Below are positions 5,135 to 44,645 of a DNA stretch of 64,000 nt, in pieces; the stretch's first letter is position 1; every line of letters begins with the position of its first letter. Position numbers and translations under genes: made by a program. The DNA is taken from positions 38,461 through 102,460 of the forward strand of contig JABLTG010000056.1 of the NCBI GenBank assembly GCA_016618085.1, written 5' to 3'. Source of the stretch: Neovahlkampfia damariscottae. Taxonomy: Eukaryota > Heterolobosea > Selenaionea > Neovahlkampfiida > Neovahlkampfiidae. The notes under the pieces were generated by a model. It searched no databases. It saw only the letters and a list, made by a program, of their open reading frames with translations, and was not told where the DNA came from.

Positions 5135-5320
5135 CTTCAACTGTAGATCGAGCTGATTGGTTCAACAAGAATTTAGCGGGAACTGTTTGTAAATATGATT
5201 AATTCCAATCAAACTTTAAATCATATTTATTTTCAAAACAAATTTGTATGATTGTTTTCATTTGTATTTCAAATACAAAATTGAAACAACAATTCTCACA
5301 TTTCATTGGATAAACAGTTT

Positions 5321-6816
5321 ATGGAAGAAGATGAAAAACAGAGCATTTTGAAATTGGTCAAAATAAATGGATGGAACTTAGAATTTGTTTCAAAAAAATT
5401 TCAAAATGACTTTGATGTTGTTTTGACGGCTGTTAATAATGAAGGAAGAAGTCTGAAATTTTCAAGTGAAAAATTAAAAAATAACAGAAAAATTGTCATA
5501 GAAGCGATAAGAAATGATCCACGCTCCATTTTATATGCATCATTAAATTTACAATCAGACAGAGAAATTGCACTGAGTGTTGTCTCAAGAAATGGATTGA
5601 CACTGGATTTTTTAAACGAGTTTAAAGGAGACGAGGAGGTTTTATTGGAGGCAATCAAACAAAATCCAATTGCTTTTTTGTATTCTAGAAAAAAAATACA
5701 AAAAAAATTACCATTTTTGAGAAAAGTTTGTTCCATTTCTGGAGGTTTAGTTCAATACATGAATGAAAAATTTAGAGTTGACAAAGAGTTAGGAATGAAT
5801 GTTGTGAAAAATAGTCCAAAATCTTATACATTTTTATCAGAGATACTGAGGAAAGACAAAGATATAGCATTGGAAACCATAAACACAAACGGAGATTTTT
5901 TTCAACTTTTGCATCCATCATTGAAAGATAATGAAGAAATAGTTTTGAAAGCGATAGAAACTTGTAAATGGATAAATCCAATTCAGTATGCTTCTGAAAG
6001 ATTAAAAAATCATCGAGAAATTGTGTTAAGAGCAATCGAAAAAAATGGAAATTTTTATGTACATGCTTCTCTCAAATTGCGATTAGATGTAGAAATTGCA
6101 AAGAAAGCTTTGGGTAAAGAACCAAATGCAATTGAACATGTTCCTTTTGAAATTGAAAATTATGAAGAATTGGTCCTTGAAACGTTGAAAGTTGATTCTT
6201 GTAAGAAAAAATATCATGTTAATCCTCAGCAATGATTCATTACATTAAAAATGAAAAACTATTAAATAACAAGGAATTCATATTGAAAACAATTGGTATT
6301 GACACAAAAATTGCTGAAAAACGATGGTTTGTATTTAAGAATGATATTGACATCATTTCTAAATTGATATCTAAAAATGGTGATAATATTAGCAAGATAG
6401 ATTTTAGAAAAAGTGATTGGAATGATGATTTATTAATCATTGGTTTAAAAAATTCAGGTCTTGCTATTCAATTCATTCCTCTATCTCTGTTAACAAAGCG
6501 AATGGCTTTCACGGCAGTTCAACAAAATTCAGAAGCCTTTAAATATTGTATCAATTTTTGTGATGACAAAGAATTGACATTATTAGTTGTTTCTTCAAAT
6601 GGAAAGATGTTAAAGTATGCACATGAAAGTCTCAAAGAAAATAAAGAAATTGCTTTGGCAGCAGTTACGCAAAACAAAGAAGCATATAAATTCATTAACG
6701 ATTCATTAAAATATGACATTGACATTTATCTGAAATATCAAAAAATGTCTCCTTTGTTGCGTCCAATAAAATCACAAAAAATTTGGAGATTGAAAGATTT
6801 ATCATTTACATTTTGA
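5321..6816 (+). CDS. DUF4116-repeat protein, two exons
   Basis: Exons 5321-6200 and 6230-6816 give 488 residues. The two halves appear as overlapping frames (TGA/ATG overlap). A GTAAG...CTCAG intron of 29 nt at 6201-6229 joins them in frame, so no frameshift is needed. About 17 repeats of roughly 25 residues follow one pattern (SEKLKNNRKIVIEAI, ASERLKNHREIVLRAIEK). Start ATG 5321 lies just after CATTGG at 5304-5309. Function unknown. Head-to-head with a shorter relative on the other strand. Confidence 0.85.
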
Positions 6817-6841: not shown

Positions 6842-9352
6842 TTATTCGAAATATAAATTTCCATTTTCTACTACTTTATCAAAAGGAACTTCTTTACCAA
6901 TTTTATAACCTAAGCCACAACTACAATCACCAACATGATCATTTGACATACTATTCCAGATACATCTTCCTAATTTTTTTCCATCACCTAAATCGGTTGC
7001 GCTAATGATATGAATGTAAACTTTCTTTCTTCTAATCTTTGGTTTATACATGTCAATAAAAAAAGTGACAGCTTCATCATAAGTTGTCTCATGAGTATAA
7101 GAAAAAGGGAATAATTTGATAAATGCTTTTAAAATATCTTTCATATTGAAACATAAAAATATTGGAACAGTCTTAAATTCTTCAATATTCAGGATAGAAT
7201 CGAACAAATCAAGTTCATCATCATGTCTTGAAATTTGATCATTTTCTAAACAATCTTGACAATAGTGTGTCAAATTTGCCATGTAAATAATACATGTGGC
7301 ATTCTTGTATACTCTTTGTTCCCATTTTTTTCTTTCTGAAAAATGACCACCAACATGAGCAAGTCTTGAAAAAGTTAAAAATTTAGAAGATCATTACTTG
7401 AATGGATCTCCATTAATATGAATCACCCTTTCATCTCGAGCTGAAAATCCAAATGATTTGGTGTATGTATGCAAACAATCTTCATCTGATAAAGTTAATG
7501 AAGACTGATGTCGAAATAAAGACAGATTATCCAAAAGACTGAAAAGTTAATTTGTTGTTATAAGTTGTTACTAAGGAATTCCTCGTTGAAGCATATTCGT
7601 GTGGGAACCAATTTCAGGTTTGATATAATTCCAAACATATTCAGCTGCTTTTGCAATTTCTTCTGTATAGAAAGAAGGATCACTTAACATGTCGTTCTTT
7701 TGAATTTGTCTTAATTTTTCCATCTCTTCCATTGTTCTATCATCAATTTGATGTCCAAAAATAACTCTAGCTCTTTCAATATTTGATTTCAAAGTTGAGA
7801 TGACATTCTCATATAAAATATGTTTTTCATATTCTCTTTCTTCCTCTGTGAATCCAATTTCATCACTTTTATGATGATTCATCAAGAAATTCTTAAACCT
7901 GTCAAATACTGTTAATTCATTTGTCAATTTACAGAGTATTTTTTCCTGTTTCGGAAGCACCCAAAATGATTATTTTATTCATTTCAAAAGGTATTAATTT
8001 TGATTTATGAATCAATGAATCAATTTTAGAATACTGAGAAATTGATATTCCTTTGGTTGTGTAATAAATATGATCAATCAAAACTCCGTTTGAAAACACT
8101 GCATCTTCGTTATCATAAAAAAGTGGAAAATCATTATAGAATAAATCATTTGAAATCAAAGAACAATAAGAAACTGATGTTTCATTGATTTGAATCAGTT
8201 CTGTTTCTAATTTCTCTTTTTTGTTCATTCCAATTCCTCCAACTATTAAAAATTGATTATCATCAAGAAATTGCATTGAATGTCCAAATCTTGGTTTTAC
8301 AGATGTTGAATATGAGTACCATGATCCATTTGAGTATTTTAATAATTCATTAAGATCCGCCTTTTTGGATAAATTATAACCTCCATAAATGAACATTGAA
8401 CCATTTGCTTCCTATAAAAAGTTAAAAAAAAACTACTTTGATAATTTTTTACAATAGCTGAATGAAAATGTCTTCCTATTGTTGGTGGGTTTGTGTATGT
8501 CATATCTTCAAGATATTTAGTGTCAAAATCATATTCAAAAAAACAACATGGGTCAACATAAGAATCATCATTTCCTTTGGTCAATCCTCCAAAAATCAAC
8601 ATTTTTTCATCTATAATTATAGCTGTGTGACCGAAGATGGTGGGTTTGTTTGATTGTGAATCTAATTTAAATCTGTTTCCTGAATTTTTTTTCTTTGAAG
8701 ATACAAAAGAACCAGCTGAAGAACCCATAGAAAATAAAATATCATTTTCATCTACAGTGTATTCAACTGAAACCCAATTCTGATTTTCTTAATAAAGAAA
8801 GTGTTAAATTTTTTTATAAAAAATAAATACCGAAATCAAAGGAATACAAAGATGAAAATATTCTTTCTGTTTCAAAATTTACACCACCAAAAATGTATAT
8901 TTTATCTCTGTGCAATACTGCTGAATGAAATGACCGACTTTCAGGAACTTCACCTTTTTGAAAACAAATCTTCATTGATTCTTCGTCTAATTTGAGTTCA
9001 GAATTAAAAAAAAATATATCATACCAAAATTATACATGAATAGAGATATATTTTCAATTTCTTTTTGTTGTTTTAATTTTACTTCTTGTCCACCAATAAT
9101 ACATCCAAAAGCATTTGAATCTTTTTTTTTTATTTTGGTGATGGAATGTCCAATCTTTTTATCATTGAAAAAATGTGATTTTATAGGTACCACTTGGTAC
9201 ATTGGCGGTTCAATTTCTGATATCAAAAGTTGATTCCCACTATTTGTGTAGTTTGTAATTCCAATTATTCTAGATCCTTTGGTTGGTGAGTTGACATCTT
9301 GATCTTTTGTTTTAATAAACCAAGAATTTTTCTTGTTCAACAAAACTGACAT
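6842..9352 (-). CDS. Kelch beta-propeller fused to a degenerate G-protein alpha subunit
   Basis: Seven exons (9025-9352, 8831-8986, 8453-8787, 7933-8411, 7572-7898, 7398-7538, 6842-7364) make one frame of 762 residues. Residues 1-415 are kelch repeats (RSFHSAVLHRDKIYIFGG, RFGHSMQFLDDNQFLIVGG). Residues 418-762 follow G-alpha order: P-loop ILGASETGKNTL, a helical domain, a switch I-like CLHTYTKSFGF, switch II HVGGHFSERKKW, FNMKD and an ATD motif. Against canonical G-alpha, the P-loop Ser is Asn, the switch I Arg is Tyr, the DVGGQ Asp and Gln are both His, and NKKD is NMKD. GTP hydrolysis therefore looks impaired (inference). It probably acts at the membrane-cytoplasm interface. ATTGGTTAA lies 17 bp upstream of the ATG. 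Confidence 0.88.
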
Positions 9353-9400: not shown

Positions 9401-12400
9401 TTAATTTTCACTAATATTCACATCATTCTCTTTTAAGATTTTTTTAACTTGTTTCAATTTAAATTCATCAGAAATATTGAATTTCAATTCAATTTCTTTT
9501 TTAACATTTTCAGAAGAAGTTGTAACATCCATGTACAAAATTTCAACTGAATTTTGAACTTGAATAATATTTTGAAATGGAATTCTAATCAAATTTGAAA
9601 TCTCTAAAAGATCAGAATCAACTTCAAATATCAGTATTGAATCATTCATAACAACCAATGTCCTCATTTCATCCTTCACTTGAATTTTAACTCTTAAATG
9701 ATCTGTGTTGTATTCTGTATTGAAAAATCTTTGTAAATGTCGATTATCATGTGATTCTTTCACCATTCCAAGAATTTTATAAAAAAATTCTGAAGATAAT
9801 GAATAAGAACCTAAAATATCAATTCTAATCAGGTAATCAAATAACTTGTATAAAGTATCTGGATCAACCATATCCATATATTTTGAAATATTTTGACAAA
9901 TTGAATTTTTCAATTGATTTTCATCAACTATTTCAGTTTCAATTTTTCCATCACAAACAATTGGTAACTTTTGCCAGTTGGAAAAATCATCTTTTTCATT
10001 TGTAAATCCTTTTGAAATGGTGTATAAAACAGTAACAAAAACAGCAAAGTTTTGAAGTGGTAGTAATTCAAGTATGAATTTTGTCAATGCGAATCTGTTT
10101 AATGATATCATGTGATGATATTTTAATGGTTTTGAAGATGATTCTCCAACCAATCCAAAATAATCTTCATCATCAACAAAAACAAAAGATAGGAATTCAT
10201 CAATCAAAAGCTTCCATAAATTATTATAATGAATCACAAAATTAACTTCACTATGATTGAATTTTGGTGGTGTTGAACTGTTATCATCTATTTTTAAACG
10301 TTTCAAAATGACTGAATCTATTGAAGAAAGAATTTGACAAATATCTTTCAAGAATTCAGCTCTTTCCAATGATATTAAAGAATCTAATGTTTTTAATATC
10401 ATTTCAAGTACACAAACAATTAAATAAATAAATTGAAAGCATAACTTTTCATTGGCACAAACTCTTAAAATGAATTCTAAAACATTTGGAACAGACAAAT
10501 TATAAATATTTTCTTTCAAAGTATACAATAGTTTTAGGATGGTATATTCACTTTGTAACATATTTTGATCTGATTTTGACATGTAAATGTGGTCTTCAAC
10601 TAGTAAATCATAAATTGTATCTTTTTCATCTTTCCCAAGATAGATGTTTAAAAACTGCTCCAGTGATGTATCTTCATGATCTGTTTCATGATAGGACCAC
10701 ATTGTTTTTGTGTTAGATACTTCTCCAACCAGAGCTTCTTTTGTTTCAATGCTATCCTCATTTTTCCCATGTTTTCCATCTCTCATGAATTTTACTGATT
10801 GACGATGCACCCTTTTGACCTGTTTCAGTGGTGTTGAATTTGGAGTTGGATTGGTTACTGTTTGAATATCAGTTGGAGTAGTTTCATCTTCGATATCAGA
10901 AATGTCTGATATTTCTGATAGATTTTCATCAAAATCATCAATAGCCCTTAAATATTTCAATGGTACTTCGTCTGATAAAATTCTATTAACATCTGGATTT
11001 GAAGTATCTTTCATATTGGAAACTAATTCTTCAAAATATGGATGTGGTAAATCCTTGTAGTTCTGAGAAAAAACATTTGAATTTCTTGGAATTCCTCTTG
11101 GTGTCATTAACATGGATTGTTTTTTCTTGATGATAAATTCTTTTCCTAAAACTTGATTGATTGTCTCATATACAAAAGTATCATTTAATTTCTTCAAACT
11201 TTTATCATCTTTACATAATGATGTAAAATATGAATAAACACGATTGAATACAGGTGTTCCCATGTGCAGAAAATTTAATAATTTTGCGATTATTTCCAAT
11301 TTCAAAGCAGTTTCAAATAACAAAGGAGTAGTTGAGTCAATAGAGCTTTCTTCATTCAACAAAATTTTTTTACACAATTCAAGATTATCTTCTGAATCAA
11401 TAATACATCCTTTCTTCAAAAATTCAACACAGAGTTGAGAAAATTTCATAAATCTCTTTGGGTATTCTGAGGAAATTGCCAACAATTCTAATACTTTTGT
11501 TGTTAATTTTTCTTGATCTGATAAATCAATCTTCATTAATAATTCAATTGCAAAATATTTCTTTGATTTCTTAGAAAAATCAGATTTGAATATTCCTTCT
11601 GTGGATAAAATATTAATTAAATGTGGAATTGATTTTTTTGATAATTCATCAAACATTACTAAAATGGATAATATCTTTGGATTTTGAGGAATTAAATCAA
11701 CTAAATAATCATCTATTTCATATTCTATTAATTTGTTTTGAAGTGAATATTCAAAAATTTCCAACAATGGAACACTGTCAATGATCAATTTTTTTTGAAA
11801 AATCTCTTTGAATGAAATGGAAGAAACAAATTGCTTTGAAATATCTGAAGTCATTGAACTGTTATTTTTCATAATGATATGGATAGTTTCAACAAATCCT
11901 TTACAAATTATTGTTTCTTCTTTTGACAATTCATCTTTTGATAATAATGTTGAAGTACTTTTCATCAAGAATGAAATATAATCTGCTTTAGTTGCATTTT
12001 CCAAAGCTTTTTCAGATTTTAATAAATTTCCCACTGTGGCATGTAATAAAGAATATCCAATAGCATCATCATGATTGACATCTCTAAAATCATTCATTGA
12101 CTTTTGAAGAATTTCATCAAACAAACCAGAATCAACAAAATCTGAAGACAAAACAGTTGAAGTAGCTGAAATCAAGCGAAGAACAAAATGTACCTCTTCT
12201 GAAGTTAAACTCCAAAACTCATTTGAAATGATGGCTTGTATAGTTTTGATAAAATCAACTCTTTGAAAAACAGATTGTGAAATATTTTGTGAACCTTCCA
12301 ATGCATCAGACAGTAACCCTAAAAACTGAATTGAAACATCAGGATTAAAATGATCCGTCAATATCTTTGAAATATGTCCATAAGCCTGTTTCAAAATCTT

Positions 12401-13670
12401 TGCATCTAAATTTGTATTCTTTAATGCATGTGCCAGTATTTCAAAATTGACTTCCGATTTTTCATTAAATATTTCGGGTATACAAGCAACAGCTTCAACA
12501 TCAAATTTTTGAAAAACTAATTCAGCCAGTGATTTGCTCAATTTTATGGCTTCTTCATTTTTAGGTATAAAAGTAAAACAAACAAGAGCAATTTTGCTGA
12601 AAATTTTTTGATGTGTTTTTTCTTTATTTGAGAATGATTTGAATATACCACTTAAACGTTCAACGAAACTATCAAATCCTTCCAACTGTATACTGATTTA
12701 AAAAATGTTAAAATTTTTTTTTCCAACGTTTTTTGCTCTTTTGAATAGCTCGTAAATGTGTCTAACAGTTTTTCACAAACTTCAAGAATATGATTTTCCG
12801 GTGTTTCTTTCATGACAGAAATAAAGTCACCAAAGGTAGATGTTGAATTTCCTCTAATATGATGAAATGAAGGTACTCTATCTAAAGCAGCAGAAGTATT
12901 ATCAAGTTTCTTTTTTAAATCACCAGCAAATATAATTTCAACTTCTTTGTCTAATTTTTTTTCAGATTTTGAAACAGGTATGCCATTCAAGTTTTTCAAG
13001 TGACTTAATCTTGAAACAAAACTACCTCTAAAATCAACTAAATTGGAAGAAAATATATTATCTGAGTAATTGACATCTTCAAGTCGTTTCAAGGAATTCA
13101 AAAATGTAAACAGATTTTCAAGTTCTTCGTGAGTATAATCCAAAAGGTTCGTTGAAACATCAATTTTGACTAATTTTGTACATTTTTCGATATTTTTATG
13201 ATCAAATATTTCCATGCTATTTCTTCTTGCATATAGTTCTTGTAGTGAAATGAGCGCATTTAAATCAGGCATTTTTTTTAATTTATTTTTTGAAAGATCA
13301 AGAACTATTAAATTCACATGAGTATTCAGTGAAACAGATGATATTATATTATTAGAAGCGTATAAACGCTTTAATTTTATAAAATTATCGAGTCCTTCAA
13401 GTTTACTAATTTGGTTGTTTGAAAAGTCTATTTCTTTCAATGAGTTTCCTTTTATTTGATTTATTCCAGGATATGAAACAAGTAAAAATCTGAAAAATTA
13501 AAAAAATATCGATATTTTTACTTTGGATCTGACGCTACTAAATACACTGGATATGCTGCTTTTTTTAAATCTTTAACTGCCAGTTGTGAGATAATTTCTT
13601 CATCTAAATCAGATACAATTTCTTTTGGATGTTTCAAACAACTCTTCTTTTTGCCACGAAACAAAATCAT
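9401..13670 (-). CDS. Large leucine-rich-repeat protein with alpha-helical body
   Basis: Three exons (13522-13670, 12728-13489, 9401-12692) give 1400 residues. Residues 60-210 carry leucine-rich repeats (LKEIDFSNNQISKLEGLDNF, LIVLDLSKNKLKKMPDLN). The long remainder is helical and ARM-like, with an acidic Ser/Thr-rich linker near the middle (SDISDIEDETTPTD). The last 100 residues look like a small beta domain, perhaps PH- or GRAM-like (LVVMNDSILIFEVDSD). I do not recognise the family. The start at 13670 follows ATCCAATCAAA on the plus strand (13705-13715). Its stop is 48 bp from the start of the Kelch/G-alpha gene on the same strand. Confidence 0.82.
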
Positions 13671-43354: not shown

Positions 43355-44518
43355 TTATAATTCCAAATGTTTAAATTTTGCCATTAATTCTTGATTTTCA
43401 GATTTCATTCTGAATCTCGAGAATGTATCTGTCATCATCATATAACTCGTAAATGTAATGACAGGTTTAAATATATCCCTTTCTATATCTTCATTTTTTA
43501 ACTGTTCTTCAATTTTATTTCTCATTGAAATATCTAAATTCAATTCATACATTGAATTCTCTCGTATATAAGTATCAAAAATAGTTTTTGCAATTAAATT
43601 CCTTTCATCTTTTCTCATTGATTTGAATTTTAATCGAAATTCAGTTGCAACACCATAAAATAACAAGTTCTCTTCGCATGCTTGTGATGTTAGAAATTTC
43701 AAATAACTTTCAAATAAATCATTGTCTTCCAACATTATTTCAAATGGTGATTTTTCATATTCATCATCTTCTTGTTCTTTTTTTTCAATTTCAATATCTT
43801 TTGATTTGTTAATTAAATACACAGTAGGTTTTCTTTTTTTTTTATTTTTTTTTATTGAAATTATTTTTATTTCAATTTCTTGTAAATTATCGTTTCTTAT
43901 TTTTTGATATTTTTTGTTCATTTCATCATCTTTTGACACTTCAATTTTTTGTAAATTTTTTTTTGTTTCTTTGATGAGGTTGTACTCAGAAAGGCTTGAA
44001 TTTTTTGATTCTTCATTTTCAGTAGATAATAAATTTTCAATGATAGATTCATATTTTGATGTGAGTGTGTCAAAAATCTCCTGATTCTTTTTATAAATTG
44101 ATATTGTTTCCAAGCTATTTTTGATTTGTTGGTTATGGATTTCTTCGTCTTCTTGAATTAAATTTTTCAAATCATTTGAGATATTTAATGATGTATCAAG
44201 CTCCTTTATCGTTGATTCTAACTTTTTTGCTACATCATTCATTTCTGTTTGATATTTTTGAATTTTTGACTGAAACTTTTGAATCAACATTTTTTGTTCT
44301 TGAATAACCAAATCAGGTGCATTAAATTTAGTTGTTTGTGGTTTTAAAGGTAGTGATTTAGACTGTATTTCAGGTGAGTTAATACTTTCTTTTTTCGGCT
44401 TAAAAAAGTTTTGTGGTTTTTTTGATGATTGTTGAACATTATTTTCATCACCTCTTGGTGATAAATTCTTTTTTAAATTTGTATTGCTTCTTTGTCTTCT
44501 CACCGGATGATTTTCCAT
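43355..44518 (-). CDS. RGS-domain protein with coiled coil
   Basis: Single exon, 387 residues. A basic N-terminus, a long coiled coil (about residues 75-220), a Lys-rich stretch, and a C-terminal RGS fold (FEIMLEDNDLFESYLKFLTSQA, ENLLFYGVATEFR, then MYELNLDISMRNKIEEQL). RGS proteins speed GTP hydrolysis by G-alpha subunits. It lies next to a seven-helix receptor-like gene and 34 kb from the Kelch/G-alpha fusion. Whether they act together is inference. ATTTTATTGGTTC precedes the start. Confidence 0.87.
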   Translation of the reverse strand: MENHPVRRQRSNTNLKKNLSPRGDENNVQQSSKKPQNFFKPKKESINSPEIQSKSLPLKPQTTKFNAPDLVIQEQKMLIQKFQSKIQKYQTEMNDVAKKLESTIKELDTSLNISNDLKNLIQEDEEIHNQQIKNSLETISIYKKNQEIFDTLTSKYESIIENLLSTENEESKNSSLSEYNLIKETKKNLQKIEVSKDDEMNKKYQKIRNDNLQEIEIKIISIKKNKKKRKPTVYLINKSKDIEIEKKEQEDDEYEKSPFEIMLEDNDLFESYLKFLTSQACEENLLFYGVATEFRLKFKSMRKDERNLIAKTIFDTYIRENSMYELNLDISMRNKIEEQLKNEDIERDIFKPVITFTSYMMMTDTFSRFRMKSENQELMAKFKHLEL

Positions 44519-44645
44519 TTGTTGTTCAGATTTTTTGAACCAATAAAATGAGAGTATCTTGAAATAAAAAAATGACTCAAAAAAAAATATTTCACTATTT
44601 TCTATTTTTTTTTATCAATAATATGCATCATGTTTGTCTTTTGTA

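Follow-up and report, generated by a model that had tools for sequence, protein, structure and literature searches.

Gene model and domain order

The DNA analysed here, called the window, is a stretch of 64,000 nucleotides from the heterolobosean Neovahlkampfia damariscottae. On its minus strand, from 9352 to 6842, lies a gene whose spliced product is predicted to begin with a kelch propeller and to end with a G-alpha-like domain (Table 1). The gene comprises 7 exons and 762 codons, followed by a stop codon at 6842-6844, and an in-frame stop lies directly 5′ of the start Met in exon 1. Our own model agrees in span, exon number and length with the preliminary description of the locus, which had joined seven exons in one frame of 762 residues. 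The convergent neighbour (5285-6816, plus strand) consists of DUF4116 repeats in two overlapping frames. Next to the start of the fusion, a 1098-residue frame (9404-12697, minus strand) with no Pfam match at E 0.001 ends about 50 bases 5′ of it. An RGS-domain gene is also found in the window, at 43358-44611 on the minus strand.

Table 1. Features of the fused gene in window coordinates
Feature	Position	Strand	Remarks
Exon 1	9025..9352	-	Start codon and first propeller part; no MG- start
Exon 2	8831..8986	-	Kelch blade IYIFGGVNF
Exon 3	8453..8787	-	Kelch blades MLIFGGLTK, GRHFHSAI
Exon 4	7933..8411	-	Kelch blades MFIYGGY, FLIVGGI, linker and P-loop in a single open frame; fusion joint
Linker, residues 402-423	7962..8027	-	Expected end of the G-alpha N-terminal helix; its first residue, 402, opens the Pfam G-alpha match, at profile position 6
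P-loop GASETGKNT, residues 424-432	7935..7961	-	Ser to Asn at N431; Lys K430 kept
Exon 5	7572..7898	-	Helical domain
Intron 5	7539..7571	-	Tyr TA|T codon and phase common to the C209 fusion and the ordinary G-alphas C47 and C271
Exon 6	7398..7538	-	End of helical domain and switch I
Switch I DCLHTYTKSFG, residues 562-572	7448..7480	-	Arg to Tyr at Y567; Thr to Ser at S570
Exon 7	6842..7364	-	Strand 3 to C-terminus and stop codon
G3 HVGGH, residues 592-596	7343..7357	-	Replaces DVGGQ; identical in P0013
G4 NMKD, residues 662-665	7136..7147	-	Replaces NKxD; identical in P0013 and P0014
C-terminal tail, about 23 residues beyond the usual G-alpha end	6845..6913	-	Alike in P0013 and P0014

The six introns are 38, 43, 41, 34, 33 and 33 nt long, in that order, and all of them have GT-AG borders and an A+T content of 74-88%. 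Introns 1-4 shift the frame, and introns 5 and 6 contain in-frame stops. As acceptor, the nearest workable in-frame AG was chosen. In introns 1, 2, 4 and 6 the frame would also be kept with a later AG, and thus the joints given for introns 1, 2 and 4 are, in their exact place, predicted ones. For intron 6, the chosen joint is corroborated by the metagenome protein P0013, whose sequence continues across it without an intron (GDSFKLSHVGGH). At this base composition, a stop-free run of 762 codons has a probability of roughly 1e-30, a rough value since the exons were picked for being open. The fusion itself does not depend on the intron model, because exon 4 alone runs without a stop from the kelch blades to the P-loop.

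A Pfam search of the spliced protein, a check that the preliminary description had suggested, returned the two domains in the order claimed there. The kelch profiles come first (PF24981, of attractin/LZTR1 type, 2.6e-31; PF24681, of KLHDC2 type, 1.6e-30) and are followed by G-alpha (PF00503, 3.1e-44, residues 402-714). The G-alpha domain had been called full-length; it does contain both the Ras-like and the helical parts, but it is nearly rather than wholly full, as the match covers positions 6-319 of the 333 in the profile. Exon 4 searched alone gave PF24981 at 1.5e-6 and PF24681 at 3.4e-5, both below the family cut-offs, and five GG kelch blade motifs can be recognized by eye. Scanned in full against Pfam at E up to 1, the protein showed no Roc or COR domain.

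Among sequences of solved structures, the G-alpha part has 307 distinct matches at E up to 0.001. The best 60 of these 307 are all G-alpha chains, with gustducin and Gt/Gi chains at the top, and the phmmer alignment to G-alpha chains takes in residues 3-321 of the 346 given and runs through the helical domain. Judged by these alignments, the domain is assigned the Ras-like plus helical G-alpha fold. A fold prediction was run on the unspliced sequence of exons 5-7, in which introns 5 and 6 were translated and stops were replaced by Gly, together with P0013 and the second metagenome protein, P0014. It gave a mean pLDDT of 37.5 and a pTM of 0.27, values too low for a usable model. The kelch part has 17 matches among the same kind of sequences, the best being LZTR1. 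Because the G-alpha match begins at profile position 6, within the linker, the propeller occupies the position of the opening part of the N-terminal helix.

The place of intron 5 is shared with ordinary G-alpha genes, which shows that the source of the G-alpha part was a G-alpha gene with introns. Two further candidates for introns of this kind were rejected: the P-loop intron lies about eight bases off that in C47 and was dropped as an ancestral G-alpha intron, and intron 6 is not at the position of the intron in C110.

Nucleotide pocket, termini and metagenome relatives

When aligned with gustducin, the protein reads GASETGKN for GAGESGKS, LHTYTKSFG for LHSRVKTTG, HVGGH for DVGGQ and NMKD for NKKD. 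The four motif changes read earlier from the letters (P-loop Asn, switch I Tyr, HVGGH and NMKD) are all present in the alignment with G-alpha chains, and S570, where the Mg-binding switch I Thr is replaced by Ser, is a change absent from that description. In G-alphas, the P-loop Ser is a magnesium ligand, the Arg and Gln drive hydrolysis, and NKKD reads guanine. Part of these roles of G-protein motif residues is restated in passages of PMC8584482. Of the G-alpha signatures, the protein departs from the P-loop GxxxxGK[ST], the switch I Arg, the Gln of DVGGQ, and NKxD, in which N and D are kept. The losses affect both Mg-linked sites, both hydrolysis residues and the guanine-packing Lys, while the switch II helix is retained along with the remainder of the domain. 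Retained in the pocket are the P-loop K430, N662, D665 and A711 (in SATD). Since the residues that contact guanine are kept except for one Lys, a nucleotide may still bind.

Both ends of the G-alpha part are also unusual. The N-terminus of the protein reads MSVLL and leads into the propeller, without the start of a lipid-modified G-alpha N-terminal helix. In comparison, among 22 stretches around the P-loops of other GTPases, which come from 15 chosen contigs and are nearly all G-alpha, 8 have an MG- start (MGNC, MGN or MGQ) within 45 residues upstream, and the others possibly start in an unseen exon. An MG- start suggests lipid anchoring. At the other end, the chain continues beyond DCGLF, which we take to be the usual G-alpha end point, and such an extension, about 23 residues long, would be expected to interfere with ordinary receptor coupling.

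The two metagenome relatives are partial. P0013 has 207 residues (source JGI, on a contig of at most 2416 bases) and is 72.5% identical to the window protein (148 of 204 aligned), and P0014 has 146 residues (source ENA, on a contig of at most 2305 bases) and is 87.0% identical (127 of 146). P0013 retains the switch I Tyr, HVGGHFSERKKWEQ (HVGGH) and CFNMKD, and the switch II helix SERKKW is kept in both it and the window protein. P0014, which covers only G4 and G5, retains NMKD and has SAID instead of SATD. The site of N431 falls outside both proteins. In P0013, pocket segments picked after the alignment are identical at 46 of 49 positions, compared to 102 of 155 elsewhere (Fisher p 3.3e-5); in P0014 there is no pocket excess (19 of 21 compared to 108 of 125, p 0.46).

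Because the replacements recur in P0013 and P0014 at the sites covered, the altered pocket is considered to be maintained, and the G-alpha part looks, from these comparisons, less like a broken gene than like a non-classical component of signalling that has been maintained. The many substitutions at residues conserved in G-alphas could also be those of a decaying copy without function. Nevertheless, the frame is open across seven exons with GT-AG splice sites, and the metagenome relatives carry the same substitutions where they are covered, which largely refutes decay and leaves it extremely improbable.

The conservation of the pocket also bears on the possibility of a rewired working switch. 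In this case, guanine nucleotide would be held through K430, N662, D665 and A711, while N431, S570, H592 and H596 would form a different metal or phosphate site, and slow or regulated exchange would alter the binding of a client by the propeller. The altered pocket is the most conserved part of P0013, and the guanine contacts are mostly retained, both of which would be expected of such a switch. By contrast, the Ser to Asn and Asp to His losses are metal-linked and come together with those of the catalytic Arg and Gln, P0014 shows no pocket excess, and conservation could equally serve folding or the binding of partners. In addition, switch I and II are hardly recognizable in the related fusion C209 described below, contrary to a shared switch function. 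On balance, we regard a rewired switch as rather unlikely, though as the most probable reading after the scaffold described below.

Kelch and G-alpha genes elsewhere

The 20.4 Mb genome (307 contigs) was searched with profiles. The six-frame search gave 123 G-alpha matches, in which exons are counted apart and some weak matches may be other GTPases, and one kelch profile gave 182 matches. Among the loci inspected, kelch also lies upstream of G-alpha on the same strand in C209 and C266.

C209, on another contig, is clearly a second kelch-G-alpha gene with the same domain order. It splices to 729 residues (Pfam kelch 1e-30, G-alpha 3.7e-21), and a single alignment with the window protein extends over both domains (757 columns, 21.8% identity, E 1.2e-29). 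One open frame of 392 residues extends from its kelch blades through the P-loop (GKRSSGKS) into the helical domain. This layout bears on whether the window holds two genes or transcripts, in which Met418 before the P-loop would start a separate short G-alpha and the kelch part would be a protein of its own. An in-frame Met (MNKIIILG) does lie directly before strand 1. Nevertheless, exon 4 is free of stops between the two parts, and in C209, with the same layout in one frame, the sole nearby Met is inside strand 1 (ILMLG). Two separate products are thus very unlikely.

The window gene and C209 share two introns in codon and phase (FDF|E with FDL|E, and PY|LL with KY|LF). A third (YNF|D with YNL|T) is shared only if a 27-nt in-frame intron of C209 is accepted; unlike the three other introns of C209, which are required by stops or by the frame, this one is not forced by the frame. 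Both proteins have NMxD and a tail with a CxC motif. The C209 P-loop reads GKS, and thus the loss of the Ser is not general. The SERKKW helix is lost in C209.

In a tree of 40 G-alpha rows, the window gene and C209 form a clade (98/86), which the program flags as a meeting of two long branches; the placement of C238 and C63 as its neighbours (93/84) is just as uncertain. When C209 is removed, a quick-method tree places the window row with C255 (support 53), and when the window row is removed, C209 goes to C238 and C63 (support 50). Since these single-removal trees place each of them elsewhere, the clade is not independently borne out, and long-branch attraction may lie behind it. Nor do propeller scores single out C209, as the window kelch part scores 73.9 bits against it and 72.3 against C22. 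The place of intron 5 is no argument for a common origin of the fusions either, because the ordinary G-alphas C47 and C271 have it. Nevertheless, the domain order, the kelch introns and the tail suggest that the fusions of the window gene and C209 likely had one origin.

C266 is a probable third kelch-G-alpha gene, with kelch (5.6e-48), a linker, a TPR-like stretch (E 0.028 only) and G-alpha (1.2e-26), in which the P-loop Lys is changed to Ile. The tree places it apart without good support, and a single clade of the window gene, C209 and C266 is not rejected (p-AU 0.174). A kelch and Ras-like GTPase pair at C22:172248-174231 (minus strand) was dropped as a fusion, because the GTPase has its own Met and the two are merely adjacent.

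Outside this genome, three protein database searches were made. With kelch words first, 12 matches among 7998 candidates had no G-alpha in the Pfam column. With residues 415-762 and length limits for long proteins, there were no matches among 2153 candidates. With an alignment led by both fusions in permuted order, none of 31 matches among 6604 candidates had both domains: 2 had G-alpha only (P0013 and P0014) and 29 had kelch without G-alpha. These searches are weak evidence that the kelch-G-alpha fusion is absent outside this genome, as a word filter limits their reach and intron-bearing genes may be listed per exon. Two scans of viral contigs found no relative. A literature search of openly licensed PMC papers found no kelch-G-alpha fusion in print, and in the main text of PMC12716839 the word kelch does not occur. 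The plan had been described as one without a described counterpart; this holds in that these searches found no fusion outside the genome, but within it there are C209 and, probably, C266.

A survey of G-alpha residues comprised 48 rows from the loci inspected, in which some genes appear twice (the window gene among them, seen from exon 7 only) and some P-loop and edge cells are fragment ends rather than real changes. The site of the hydrolysis Gln can be read in 46 rows and holds Q in 29 of them. Arg is retained in switch I in 24 of 41 rows and Lys in G4 in 37 of 47; in a further 6 the G4 position is M, and the window gene accounts for two of those. As many rows are without the canonical residues, altered G-alphas are common in this genome.

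Multi-domain G-alphas are likewise common, with other G-alpha matches of the genome joined to different domains. C239:116341-118638 (plus strand) is an intron-free frame of 766 residues with a proline-rich start and CRIB/PBD (3.5e-13) directly before G-alpha (1.6e-46), in which the hydrolysis Gln and the Arg are replaced. An F-box follows the G-alpha match in one frame at C252:168972-170495 (minus strand; Pfam 7.2e-8, over the cut-off), C48:35844-36779 (plus strand; 1.6e-4, below the cut-off) and C275:84014-85381 (minus strand; by eye). At C33:181297-182367 (minus strand), the latter half of a G-alpha is followed by the start of a protein kinase in one open frame (1.9e-12), and at C238:108430-109888 (plus strand), a PX frame (7.8e-11) directly precedes G-alpha, which is only a candidate joint. 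C48 and C113 each have two close successive G-alpha matches on one strand, possibly in tandem, the first C48 piece being under the Pfam cut-off. RGS matches in the 20.4 Mb genome number at least 150, with 150 of 421 candidates scored.

Possible action of the fused protein

The likeliest reading, to which we give an even chance, is that of a non-cycling G-alpha fused behind a kelch propeller, which would act as a soluble docking scaffold. The propeller would bind and hold a client protein, and the G-alpha module would be empty or locked with GDP. One or more of the usual G-alpha partners would still find the SERKKW helix that follows switch II, and the alpha3/beta5 face, available for docking, and the captured partners would be either brought to the client or kept from ordinary G-alphas. 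We infer that the protein would not hydrolyze GTP, would probably not hold Mg-GTP, and would be cytosolic and capture partners. The observations in favour of this reading are the fusion itself and its counterpart C209, the losses at the Mg sites, the hydrolysis residues and the guanine Lys, the lack of an MG- start, the conserved tail and the recurrence of the pocket in the relatives. With 40 G-alpha rows in the tree and the 150 RGS matches, the genome would also offer such a scaffold much to act on.

There are also observations against such a scaffold. K430, N662, D665 and A711 are kept, with which a nucleotide may still bind. In P0014, the pocket shows no excess of conservation and G5 is SAID, and N431 is covered by neither metagenome protein. 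Moreover, the P-loop of C209 is GKS, and without the SERKKW helix in C209, the capture of partners through SERKKW would not be common to both fusions. The result of the tree does not alter the weight given to each mechanism, because the mechanism is independent of a common origin with C209. The earlier suggestion was of a pseudo-GTPase, or an unusual switch, with a built-in scaffold; of these, the pseudo-GTPase scaffold is the best supported, with the reservation that guanine contacts are kept and a nucleotide may still bind.

Known systems offer partial parallels. As in heterotrimeric G-alphas (PF00503), the Ras-like and helical parts follow each other over nearly the whole profile, and the P-loop Lys, the N and D of NKxD and the SAT motif are present. 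Unlike them, the Mg-linked Ser and Asp, the Arg, the Gln and the guanine Lys are replaced, there is no MG- start, and a propeller precedes and a tail follows the domain. Roco proteins likewise combine a GTPase domain with a propeller or other repeats within a single chain, but have a Roc-COR core where the fusion has a G-alpha.

Plant XLGs are, by analogy, the best precedent for G-alpha action free of GTP, a likeness in principle with a different plan. According to passages of PMC8584482, XLGs have a very low affinity for GTP, and an XLG2 unable to bind GTP still works in several respects. The same passages describe a G-alpha-like half whose nucleotide motifs are weak and which follows a long N-terminal part, as in the fusion; in XLGs, however, this N-terminal part has a Cys-rich motif with an NLS and an NES, in contrast to the kelch propeller found here.

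The N-terminal helix of G-alphas contacts G-beta. In the fusion, the propeller sits where this helix should be, and the SERKKW helix of switch II is kept in the window protein and P0013. Both facts would suit a single-chain G-alpha with a mimic of G-beta, in which the propeller would fold back on switch II and keep the module shut. The yeast kelch proteins Krh1/Krh2 (Gpb1/Gpb2), which bind the G-alpha Gpa2, were first taken as G-beta mimics, but this idea was later revised, as recounted in parts of PMC3247754. In contrast to the fusion, the yeast proteins are separate chains and their G-alpha is an ordinary one. Attractin and LZTR1 propellers (PF24981) are the best match of the window propeller both in Pfam and among sequences of solved structures. 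In PMC8154269, a modelling study, the kelch part of LZTR1 is the substrate-recognition region, and LZTR1 interacts with the GTPase RIT1. Unlike in the fusion, that GTPase is a separate client, and LZTR1 carries BTB domains. As the SERKKW helix is lost in C209 and the yeast idea was revised, we consider a G-beta mimic unlikely. Nevertheless, the scaffold and a G-beta-like lid are compatible, and both can be true.

A broader and similarly doubtful proposal would combine several of these features. There would be a family of one-chain propeller-G-alpha proteins with an internal G-beta-like lid and a pocket rebuilt (N431, Y567, H592, H596 and M663) for a use other than hydrolysis, for instance, with another metal or a constant ligand. 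The lineage itself would have turned G-alpha into a general module, joined to CRIB, F-box, kinase and kelch parts.

What is new here is the second kelch-G-alpha gene, C209, the probable third, C266, the pocket replacements shared with metagenome proteins, the lack of an MG- start and the extra conserved tail. If the scaffold reading is true, the protein would join its own propeller to a G-alpha whose non-classical pocket is conserved, and would provide a natural test, outside plants, of signalling free of the GTP cycle. The genome also seems to have built G-alpha into fusions on several occasions, beside many RGS domains. A genome with G-alpha fusions and many RGS domains would thus be a system for asking which G-alpha surfaces matter without the switch.
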